Source: Fistulifera solaris
Lineage: Eukaryota > Bacillariophyta > Bacillariophyceae > Naviculales > Stauroneidaceae
DNA: 64,000 nt
Assembly: GCA_030295235.1 (NCBI GenBank)
Contig: AP026164.1
Location: 1,178,001 to 1,242,000, forward strand
Reading direction: 5' to 3'
The position numbers were made by a program, and so were the translations under genes. The notes under the pieces were generated by a model. It saw only the letters and a list, made by a program, of their open reading frames with translations, was not told where the DNA came from and did no database searches. Position 1 is the first letter of the stretch. Each line of letters begins with the position of its first letter. Below are positions 36,333-39,148 of the stretch, in pieces.

Positions 36333-37388
36333 ATGAAGGTTCTAAGGAATTTACCAAGGACCAACAAATTCGAGGGAATCTTTGACGTACAAAGGAAAAT
36401 GAATTCTTCTTTCCTATCTCTCTTGGTTTTAGCTATGTCGTCGCTAGCGTTTTTCGTTCTGAACGTATATCAACTGAATACATGGAATACTTCATCTCGG
36501 GTTACAACATTATCACAACAAATTGAAATGAATAGGACCATTCATCATGTGCCAATCCAAATGCGGCCAAAAACACGGGGCAAACTGGTTCAACCCGGAG
36601 ATTTCATTTACTACAGAGATGACAAGCGATGGGACTCGGCGCCCATTGTAATCGAATCCCACAAGTTGGTCTTCTTTACCATTCCCAAGGTCGGCTGCAC
36701 GGTTTGGAAACAATTATTTCGTCGCATGGAAGGATACTCCGACTGGCAGGATCAAGACGGCGAGCGCCTGTTGCCGCACAACCCAAACGAGAATGGTTTG
36801 AAATATCTGTACGATTATTCCATTGAAAAAGCCAACGAGATCATGACCAGTCCGAAGTGGACCAAGGCCATGATGGTGCGCGAACCGAAGCAGCGATTTC
36901 TGAGTGCCTTTCTCGATAAAGCAGTCAGCAACGATCATGCTCACATCAGGAACAAATGCTGTCAGTTTATGGAAGATGCACAGCAATGCGTTGACTCGGC
37001 GCAAACAGCATCTGGATTTTTGGAGTTGATCAAAGCATGTGAGGATGATCATTGGAGAGCTCAGTACGATCGAGTGGACTATAAATATTGGCCTTACATT
37101 GACATGGTGTTGCATGTGGAGACGGCGGAGGAGGATGCAAAGAGACTTTTACAGAAAATCGGAGCATGGGATGAGTTTGGTCAAACAGGATGGTCGTCAG
37201 ATCATCAGAGTCCCATATTTGGCAACGCTGCTAAAAGTGCCGGCGATCACGCAACTTGGTCGCAGTGGCAGGTATGGAAATGGTACACGCCCGAGGTGGA
37301 ACGTCAAGTGGAAGCATTTTACCGAGCAGATTACGAGAATCCACTCTTCAATTTCACCACATACGAATGCTTCACCTGTGTTAAATAA
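36333..37388 (+). CDS. Golgi-type sulfotransferase (intact paralogue)
   Basis: A single-exon protein of 351 residues, or 329 if the second Met (36399, MNSSFLSLLVLAMSSLAFFV) is used. The second start places the signal anchor at the N-terminus as in type II Golgi enzymes. The PAPS 5' loop is FFTIPKVGCTVWKQLFRRM and the 3' motif is MMVREPKQRFLSAFLDKA. Later segments are KYWPYIDMVLHVETAEEDAKRLLQKIGAWDEFG and FNFTTYECF. The arrangement fits the Sulfotransfer_2 group that sulfates glycans. It is close in sequence to the gene at 22456-23617, which carries an intron this copy lacks. Confidence 0.85.
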   Translation: MKVLRNLPRTNKFEGIFDVQRKMNSSFLSLLVLAMSSLAFFVLNVYQLNTWNTSSRVTTLSQQIEMNRTIHHVPIQMRPKTRGKLVQPGDFIYYRDDKRWDSAPIVIESHKLVFFTIPKVGCTVWKQLFRRMEGYSDWQDQDGERLLPHNPNENGLKYLYDYSIEKANEIMTSPKWTKAMMVREPKQRFLSAFLDKAVSNDHAHIRNKCCQFMEDAQQCVDSAQTASGFLELIKACEDDHWRAQYDRVDYKYWPYIDMVLHVETAEEDAKRLLQKIGAWDEFGQTGWSSDHQSPIFGNAAKSAGDHATWSQWQVWKWYTPEVERQVEAFYRADYENPLFNFTTYECFTCVK

Positions 37389-37495: not shown

Positions 37496-37505
37496 TATAT
37501 ATATA
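37496..37505 (+). promoter_or_regulatory. TATA-like element upstream of the permuted tRNA
   Basis: A (TA)5 run about 34 nt upstream of the first tRNA nucleotide. In many eukaryotes a TATA element at about this distance helps place RNA polymerase III. The role here is inferred. Confidence 0.45.
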
Positions 37506-37538
37506 CATTAAGATCACCAATTATTCAACTCGCATGTT

Positions 37539-37618
37539 TCGAATGGTCACGTGTTCGACTCACGTTTGGCGCTTAACTAAAGCGTCAATAGCTCAGTGGT
37601 AGAGCGTTCGATTGCAGA
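37539..37618 (+). tRNA. circularly permuted tRNA-Cys(GCA): 3' half precedes 5' half
   Basis: The 3' half is at 37539-37573 and the 5' half at 37582-37618, separated by TAACTAAA. Exchanging the halves gives a standard cloverleaf. The acceptor stem is GCGTCAA (37582-37588) with TTGGCGC (37566-37572), all paired with one G-U, and the discriminator is U at 37573, as in tRNA-Cys. The D stem is GCTC/GAGC (37591-37605). The anticodon stem is TTCGA (37607-37611) with TCGAA (37539-37543). The loop TTGCAGA has anticodon GCA at 37614-37616. The variable loop is TGGTC. The T stem is ACGTG/CACGT with loop TTCGACT. Every stem pairs fully. The internal promoter boxes are in reversed order: B-box-like 37553-37561 before A-box-like 37589-37599. 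Maturation would need a circular precursor, ligation at the anticodon loop, and removal of the joining 8 nt. Confidence 0.92.
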
Positions 37619-37624
37619 GGGATG

Positions 37625-37637
37625 TTTTTTGCTTTTT
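37625..37637 (+). terminator. RNA polymerase III-type oligo-T terminator
   Basis: A T6 run (37625-37630) and a T5 run (37633-37637) begin seven nucleotides after the 5' half of the permuted tRNA. This fits one pol III transcript covering both halves. Confidence 0.65.
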
Positions 37638-37785
37638 CTACATGTTTATGCCAGTTTCTGTGATACACGGATTGGCGATAGGCGATGCCTTTGATCTTCT
37701 CTTTTGATCGAAGTCGAAAAACCTAATACCGGAGTACCAAGTACTAGGGCATCCATTCCAAACAAAAAAAAATGCCTTGACGACC

Positions 37786-39148
37786 ATGAGATTGAATCGA
37801 CTTTTCCTTGTCATTCTTGTGGTCATTGTTGATTTAGTCGCTTATTTCTACATCAGAGCCTCCTTTGGAATCGGTGGTGATGTTTCAGAATCAGCGCTTG
37901 TCAAAAAGACAGAAAAGCAAACCTTGCCGTCAATAGACGACTCCTCAACAAGCTTGGAAAGAGGAGTCCATGAAAACGCCGTTCGCTCTAGTACCGGATC
38001 TGTGAGGAAATTTAAAGAGCCATTGCTATCTCATAAGGTCACCTATGCCCCAACGGGTGGGAAGCTTCCAGAGGACGGGTTTGACACGTACGACGAAACT
38101 GCATGGAATAAACTAGATAATGGAACATGTCTATTTAAAGATGACGAAGAAGATCAAGCTTTTGAATGGCAAAGGACCTCTCCGTACGCAATACTGTTGG
38201 GCACAATGAAAGGCGGGACACATGCTCTGTCCGAATACTTGTGGCAGCATCCGCTGATAGCCGCACCCAAGAAAGTAGAGAAAAATGGCCATGAGCTCCA
38301 TTTCTTCGACAGCCGCAGTTTTGAAAGGGGGGAATTAGGAATTCCGCGAAAACCCAATCAACTGTCTTACGCTATGAAAGTGCATAGAATGTACCCGGAT
38401 TTCTTTTACACAAAAGAAAGTATGTATACGATTCATGATTCACCACGATACCTGGTGTGGAGTGACCGAATTCCTGAAGCAATCCTGTGTGTGACCCCTT
38501 GGTCGAAGCTTATCGCCGTTTTAAGGGATCCAGTTGAACGTGTGATATCGCACTATCGCTTTCAAGATCAAGGTAGGTTTCATTGTTTTCTCATGTTTCG
38601 CCTGTAGTGTTCTGGAGCGCATATCAACTCAACTGTTGCTAGCTCGATTTCGAAAACACATACCTATGGTAGATTGGGAGACGTGGATACAGGATGACAT
38701 TGAGCGTTTGAAACGAGCGGGAGTACTTCAGGATTGGAATCAAGTAAGTTTTGAGGAGTTTTCGGGCTCGGGAGCTGAACTAATTGCATGGAAGAAATAT
38801 CTTCGATCGCCTACTACTCAGATGATTGTTGGTCGCGGGCTTTACTCCCTACAAATTGAGCATTATCTTGCGGCTATGGACAAAGCGGGGAAACCTCGGT
38901 CAGATTTATTGGTCCTTCGGTCAGAGGAACTTCGGGACGAAACGCAACTGGTCTACAATCGAGTTATTGACTTTCTTAACCTTCCTCAACATGTTCTCAG
39001 CGATACCGAAGCAAAACATAAGACTCAGAAGAGCTCTACTCCGATTCCAAGTGACTTGCGCAAACAGCTGGAAGAGCTATACAGGCCTTACAACCGGCGA
39101 CTAAATAAACTTTTGGACTGGAACAACGTCTGGGATTACAACAATTAA
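37786..39148 (+). CDS. sulfotransferase (Sulfotransfer_1 / heparan-type), two exons
   Basis: Exon 1 37786-38572, 70-nt intron, exon 2 38643-39148; 430 residues. The protein is type II, with signal anchor LFLVILVVIVDLVAYFYI right after the start, then a polar stem and the catalytic domain. The 5'-phosphosulfate loop is LGTMKGGTHALSEYLWQHP (relatives have KGGTTAL) and the 3'-phosphate motif is LIAVLRDPVERVISHYRFQDQ. The domain resembles heparan-sulfate N- and 3-O-sulfotransferases and uses PAPS in the Golgi. The acceptor is unknown, possibly a sulfated cell-wall polysaccharide. It starts only about 150 nt after the permuted tRNA. Confidence 0.87.

Follow-up and report, generated by a model that had tools for sequence, protein, structure and literature searches.

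Gene order, cloverleaf and flanking elements at the locus

The window analysed here is a 64-kb stretch of DNA (C4:1178001-1242000) from a 61-contig, 51.7-Mb diatom assembly. On its + strand, direct reading finds the two halves of a tRNA-Cys(GCA) gene in exchanged order, the 3′ half upstream of the 5′ half and 8 nt apart, as a sequence-only reading of the locus had proposed (Table 1). The 3′ half comprises T38, the 3′ strand of the anticodon stem, the variable loop, the T arm, the 3′ strand of the acceptor and U73; the 5′ half comprises the 5′ strand of the acceptor, the D arm, the 5′ strand of the anticodon stem and UU-GCA-G.

Table 1. Features of the permuted tRNA-Cys(GCA) locus, in window positions. 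BHB, bulge-helix-bulge.
Feature	Position	Strand	Evidence
TATA-like run TATATATATA, candidate Pol III upstream promoter	37496..37505	+	sequence; putative function
BHB leader strand, -12 to -1; cut predicted after 37537	37526..37537	+	8/10 positions paired, both here and in C3
3′ half, tRNA-Cys(GCA) positions 38-73	37538..37573	+	sequence, homeolog, covariance model, ARAGORN
Linker TAACTAAA between the halves	37574..37581	+	4 of 8 bases changed in homeolog
5′ half, tRNA-Cys(GCA) positions 1-37	37582..37617	+	sequence, homeolog, covariance model, ARAGORN
BHB trailer strand, i1-i7; cut predicted before 37618	37618..37624	+	BHB register
Oligo-T terminator-like runs	37625..37637	+	sequence; putative function

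When the halves are exchanged all 21 stem pairs form (acceptor 7/7, with one G-U; D 4/4; anticodon 5/5; T 5/5), the anticodon is GCA and the discriminator is U73, all as read before. The positions U8, G15:C48, G18G19, U33 and U54U55C56 are also present in the exchanged tRNA, and the joined halves are recognised by ARAGORN as tRNA-Cys(gca) whichever of two possible junctions is used. CCA is absent from the gene: U73 is followed by TAA here and by TGT in a homeologous copy on contig C3, described below. The flanking TATA-like and oligo-T runs, already pointed out in the sequence-only reading, are both present. The former ends 33 nt upstream of the 3′ half and is retained as a ATATATAT run upstream in the C3 homeolog, and by eye the AT-rich upstream stretches of seven conventional nuclear tRNA genes that were inspected are less regular. 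The latter consist of T6 at 37625-37630 and T5 at 37633-37637, the homeolog having T4 and then T5.

Neither ARAGORN nor Rfam at its gathering thresholds reported a tRNA within the 64-kb window. A permuted-tRNA covariance model, for which 15 conventional nuclear and organellar tRNAs of this genome, none of them Cys, had their halves exchanged by script, scores the locus at 69.0 bits (E = 3.5e-21 with 67,170 bases searched); the second-best match in the window reaches 10.2 bits. Since the same model gives conventional tRNA loci of this genome up to 38.9 bits and tandem conventional tRNAs in viral contigs up to 64.8 bits, the score alone is no proof of permutation and must be taken together with the finding that the locus has neither complete tRNAs nor outer halves. 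ARAGORN finds no complete tRNA there, and within 500 nt of either copy no outer tRNA halves rise above shuffles, so that tandem conventional tRNAs with outer-half remnants are unlikely. A gapped pattern running from T loop to D arm matches once in the window and not at all in 100 shuffles (0.00 expected), and a structural scan for permuted tRNA also gives one match in the window.

The tRNA locus is flanked by genes on the same strand, one at 36333-37388 encoding a Sulfotransfer_2 protein and another region at 37777-39148 with two open frames. A neighbouring aspartokinase/homoserine dehydrogenase is 97% identical to the Fistulifera solaris protein, and among its matches (at least 120, most of them without an organism name) every other organism named is a diatom. 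The host is probably a Fistulifera-like raphid diatom.

A homeologous copy and the search for other tRNA-Cys genes

When 341 bases were used to search the assembly at the DNA level, one other locus came up, on C3, matched in two pieces. There, C3:1297516-1297595 repeats the permuted order, the spacing and the flanks seen in the window. All 72 tRNA bases are identical between the homeologs (36/36 in each half), and the C3 linker, TGTCCGAA, differs from TAACTAAA at 4 of its 8 bases. The aligned flanks differ at 37 of 265 bases, with 114/136 aligned bases identical in the leader (84%) and 114/129 in the trailer (88%, with many gaps). Fisher tests of exon change against the linker and against the aligned flanks give 4e-5 and 1.6e-4, respectively. 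As judged from this comparison, the tRNA is under selection while the linker drifts. Neighbouring coding sequence shares 91-92% identity between the homeologs, and two homeologous sets of chromosomes appear to be present in the genome. Downstream of the tRNA and ahead of the following gene, a 21-base block at 37663-37683 (ATACACGGATTGGCGATAGGC) is unchanged in the homeolog, surrounded by diverged, gapped sequence; it may help to regulate the gene that follows.

The comparison also bears on the exact ends of the halves. The two-half layout of the sequence-only reading stands, and its limits (37539-37573 and 37582-37618) are more likely shifted by one base to those of Table 1. At 37618 the window has A and the C3 homeolog G, whereas both have T at 37538; because the former varies and the latter is fixed, the exons most likely end at 37617 and begin at 37538. 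The junction would thus most likely be the canonical 37/38 (type II). The 38/39 junction implied by the earlier limits is less likely, given the variation at 37618 and the register of the splice motif (see below).

Whether a conventional tRNA-Cys(GCA) gene exists elsewhere in the genome had been raised by the sequence-only reading, and the nuclear searches of the assembly found none. These comprised one search at the DNA level across the 51.7 Mb, plus patterns in which as many as 3 mismatches were allowed. With the joined tRNA as query, the matches (E up to 10) are the two permuted loci alone, as 4 half-matches. Two consensus patterns (≤3 mismatches) return the two permuted loci and two sites on the plastid-like contig C60; the latter were rejected as tRNA-Cys, their matched letters reading GCC, not GCA. 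A pattern for the Cys-type 5′ half has six matches, the two permuted loci and four others, which is also the number given by the pattern read backwards (2 and 2). At those four ARAGORN calls no tRNA, and in two of them the D loop lacks GG. An initiator-tRNA pattern of like design, run as a control, picks up two conventional genes, on C5 and C6. The plastid carries its own conventional tRNA-Cys(GCA).

The nucleus of this diatom probably has no tRNA-Cys gene other than the permuted kind, within the limits that a divergent gene can be missed by patterns, that the assembly may be incomplete and that some of its stretches are N. The Rfam tRNA search of the assembly scored 63 of 1908 candidates, and 56 of these 63 lie on contigs C57-C61, which include plastid and probably mitochondrial sequences.

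A rearranged dead copy would fit with such a rearrangement being one proposed origin of permuted tRNA genes (PMC3978253), and the whole-genome tRNA search that scored 63 of 1908 candidates leaves it some room. We consider it improbable, since pattern and DNA searches of the assembly found no conventional nuclear tRNA-Cys(GCA) and the homeolog keeps the permuted gene with its tRNA bases intact while flanks and linker have diverged. The lack of outer-half remnants above shuffles within 500 nt of either copy also speaks against it. Very improbable, in our view, is that the locus is expressed to yield circles or RNA fragments while the cytosolic tRNA-Cys used in translation comes from elsewhere: permuted pre-tRNAs do pass through circles (PMC3978253), but the acceptor, anticodon and discriminator bases of tRNA-Cys are all kept here, and no alternative nuclear tRNA-Cys gene was found.

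The organelle contigs look like joined copies. C60, of 232,645 bases, is about twice as long as C61 (116,223), with tRNA matches that come up again in the opposite orientation, and on C57 matches repeat about 43 kb apart. By eye, C61 holds tRNAs along with plastid-looking reading frames; the latter look short or broken, suggestive of base errors in that contig. Such errors are what could be said for an assembly artefact at the permuted locus, which is hardly credible, as is a chance juxtaposition of two tRNA fragments: the same order is repeated at the homeologous site, which lies on a different contig and has diverged flanks, the 21 stem pairs are complete, and the pattern matches expected from shuffles are nil.

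Splice motif, splicing machinery and predicted maturation

Leader and trailer can pair across the anticodon loop in a BHB motif. In the 37/38 register, positions 33-35 pair with -4 to -6 and i2-i7 mostly with -7 to -12, which leaves a 3-nt bulge at each cut. The relaxed pairing of 8/10 is reached by 971 (here) and 593 (C3) of 100,000 leader/trailer shuffles, the two homeologous copies not being independent samples. When the 3′ cut alone is shifted by 1-2 nt, pairs fall to 1-6, and shifting both cuts by 1-3 nt leaves 2-6 pairs here and 3-7 in C3. The junction of the sequence-only reading, with both cuts moved by one, has 5/10 pairs here and 7/10 in C3. The register favours 37/38 clearly here and slightly in C3 (8 vs 7 of 10).

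The homeologs differ at three places of the motif: at -5 a G-C becomes G-U and pairing is kept, at i3 the G-U found here is lost in C3, and the mismatch of -10 with i5 found here is paired in C3. The helix that had been proposed between CTCGC (37529-37533) and GC-A-GAG can form; in the shape that fits both copies, those same bases take part in a relaxed BHB with a 3-nt bulge, A36-G37-R. An anticodon-intron pair at 32:-3 is generally expected for eukaryotic endonucleases. In both copies 32:-3 is U x U, hence the BHB is a relaxed one. Anticodon-intron pairs are recognised by the yeast endonuclease, according to the 2014 review, which does not give them as defining permuted genes (PMC3978253).

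The genome encodes tRNA-splicing endonuclease domains at three places (C19, C20 and C10). Two of these three frames match Pfam with E-values of 3e-13 and 2e-5 (the latter below the curated cut-off) and solved tRNA endonucleases with 3.7e-5 and 0.009. Tpt1 is encoded at two places, C9 and C10. RtcB was not found in this genome by a search whose control was positive in 9/14 genomes, and the Trl1-type ligase models PF09511 and PF08302 gave no match, but without a working control; Trl1 homologs are said to occur in diatoms (review PMC4090602). Given that Tpt1 is present and RtcB was not found, ligation of the 5′-phosphate type, which leaves a 2′-phosphate, is the likelier route.

We consider the locus very probably functional: a nuclear gene, circularly permuted with its junction at 37/38 (type II), that encodes cytosolic tRNA-Cys(GCA) and is probably the sole nuclear kind of gene for it. 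RNA polymerase III would start downstream of the TATA-like run and stop at the T runs, giving a transcript of leader, 3′ half, linker, 5′ half and trailer. With leader and trailer paired into the BHB across the anticodon loop, the tRNA-splicing endonuclease is predicted to cut at 37537/37538 and 37617/37618. The ends would then be ligated into a circle, probably with the 2′-phosphate removed by Tpt1, from which RNase P and tRNase Z would excise the 8-nt linker before CCA is added after U73. In folds of the predicted circle the linker is the loop at the acceptor end, and in either copy U73 and U74 can form pairs with the two A's that precede G1.

On balance, we lean towards the broader reading that all nuclear tRNA-Cys(GCA) genes of this diatom are permuted and fixed in both subgenomes, that cytosolic cysteine decoding would need a circular RNA, and that the gene may be the first of its kind in a stramenopile, either independent of the tRNA-Cys ones in green algae or derived from an algal endosymbiont. 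An essential tRNA that seems to be permuted only, in two diverged subgenomes, would offer a natural replicate for the bases of leader, linker and trailer.

Known permuted tRNA genes and permuted-looking tRNAs in phage-like contigs

A list from 2014 counts 34 permuted tRNA genes in a red alga, four prasinophytes, one nucleomorph and one archaeon, with intervening sequences of 1-74 nt (PMC3978253). In the algal pathway, a linear transcript is cut at the BHB and closed into a circle, the linker is removed, probably by RNase P and tRNase Z, and CCA is added; unlike in the archaeal cases, CCA is not encoded in the algal permuted genes (PMC3978253). The cis features of this pathway are present at the diatom locus.

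The closest counterparts are the type II tRNA-Cys(GCA) genes of Ostreococcus lucimarinus, O. tauri and Micromonas pusilla, which share with the diatom gene the 37/38 junction and the lack of an intron, and have linkers of 26, 38 and 12 nt, respectively, compared with 8 nt in the diatom (PMC3978253). Their hosts, unlike ours, are prasinophytes (nuclear genes). Cyanidioschyzon merolae resembles the diatom in having, in most cases, an upstream TATA-like sequence, as well as a downstream T stretch and no encoded CCA, and its linkers of 7-74 nt take in the diatom length of 8 nt (PMC3978253). For this red alga a circular intermediate and charging have been reported (PMC3978253). Its 11 permuted genes include no Cys, fall into four junction types and have varied BHB motifs, whereas in the diatom one isotype was found, with a 37/38 junction (PMC3978253).

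Nucleomorphs offer a further comparison. The tRNA-Ser of the Bigelowiella natans nucleomorph has the 37/38 junction of the diatom gene, with 5-nt linkers (PMC3978253), and the nucleomorph of Amorphochlora amoebiformis carries two permuted tRNA-Ser genes (PMC4494063). Chlorarachniophyte nucleomorphs are relict green-algal nuclei and their permuted genes are for serine tRNAs, whereas the diatom gene lies in the main nucleus. In the green alga Auxenochlorella, permuted tRNAs were found after tRNAscan-SE had given an incomplete set (PMC12636532). Ordinary finders can make an essential tRNA look missing, as with ARAGORN, which reports nothing at the diatom locus.

In a non-exhaustive search of the literature, we found neither a diatom nor any other stramenopile reported to carry a permuted tRNA gene. 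Among the texts that mention both permuted tRNA and diatoms, none ties the two in the portions available, and the accessible part of PMC4033280 names no diatom among the carriers. With one pattern, no relatives of the 5′ half were found in the prokaryote genome contigs and viral contigs searched. The type II permuted tRNA-Cys(GCA) is thus a known kind of gene in a lineage for which we found no report, and priority is not claimed. The diatom case would extend permuted tRNA genes to a lineage with a secondary red plastid.

Permuted tRNAs in phages, if true, would be a separate and possibly larger finding, and phage-like contigs gave several observations of this kind. They contain a repeated small-RNA element of the form AGA-(G+4 nt)-T(A/G)CTTATTTC-insert-(complement of the 5-mer)-C, found at L057:1741-1870 (+), on L115 (-, ~1675-1894 and elsewhere), on L191, L193, L206, L210, L214 and L231, and on others. 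An exact complementary 5-mer followed by C lies within 240 nt at 57 of 68 distinct sites, some of them at loci that overlap or are near-copies, with 15 different helix sequences; a swapped-helix control gave a mean of 5.25 and at most 11 over 200 rounds. The element often stands behind a TATAAT-like box, and at its sites on 14 loci tRNA is the sole family that Rfam reports.

Structural scans of phage-like contigs point to permuted-looking tRNAs that overlap no ARAGORN tRNA. Seven have the element just upstream: L057:1772-1851 (+), L115:1675-1754 (-), L206:3575-3650 (+), L209:9564-9639 (+), L210:7871-7946 (+), L213:646-721 (-) and L235:4021-4100 (-). Others are without it, at L082:6477-6562 (+), L121:1154-1229 (+) and L208:3892-3967 (+). 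The first scan gave 5 non-diatom matches, one of them (L141) weak, and a looser one 9 matches in 63 loci, 5 with the element upstream. The L115 site scores 69.9 bits with the permuted covariance model, above the diatom gene and the best of the viral matches, and overlaps no conventional tRNA.

The phage junction is not always the algal 37/38; by eye, the L057 tRNA seems to be split in the anticodon stem, and the L210 insert encodes ACCA after the acceptor. A T-loop motif occurs in 16 of 57 elements, some elements hold just a T arm and acceptor (L229, L239), and the element at position 656 of L203 holds a whole conventional tRNA.
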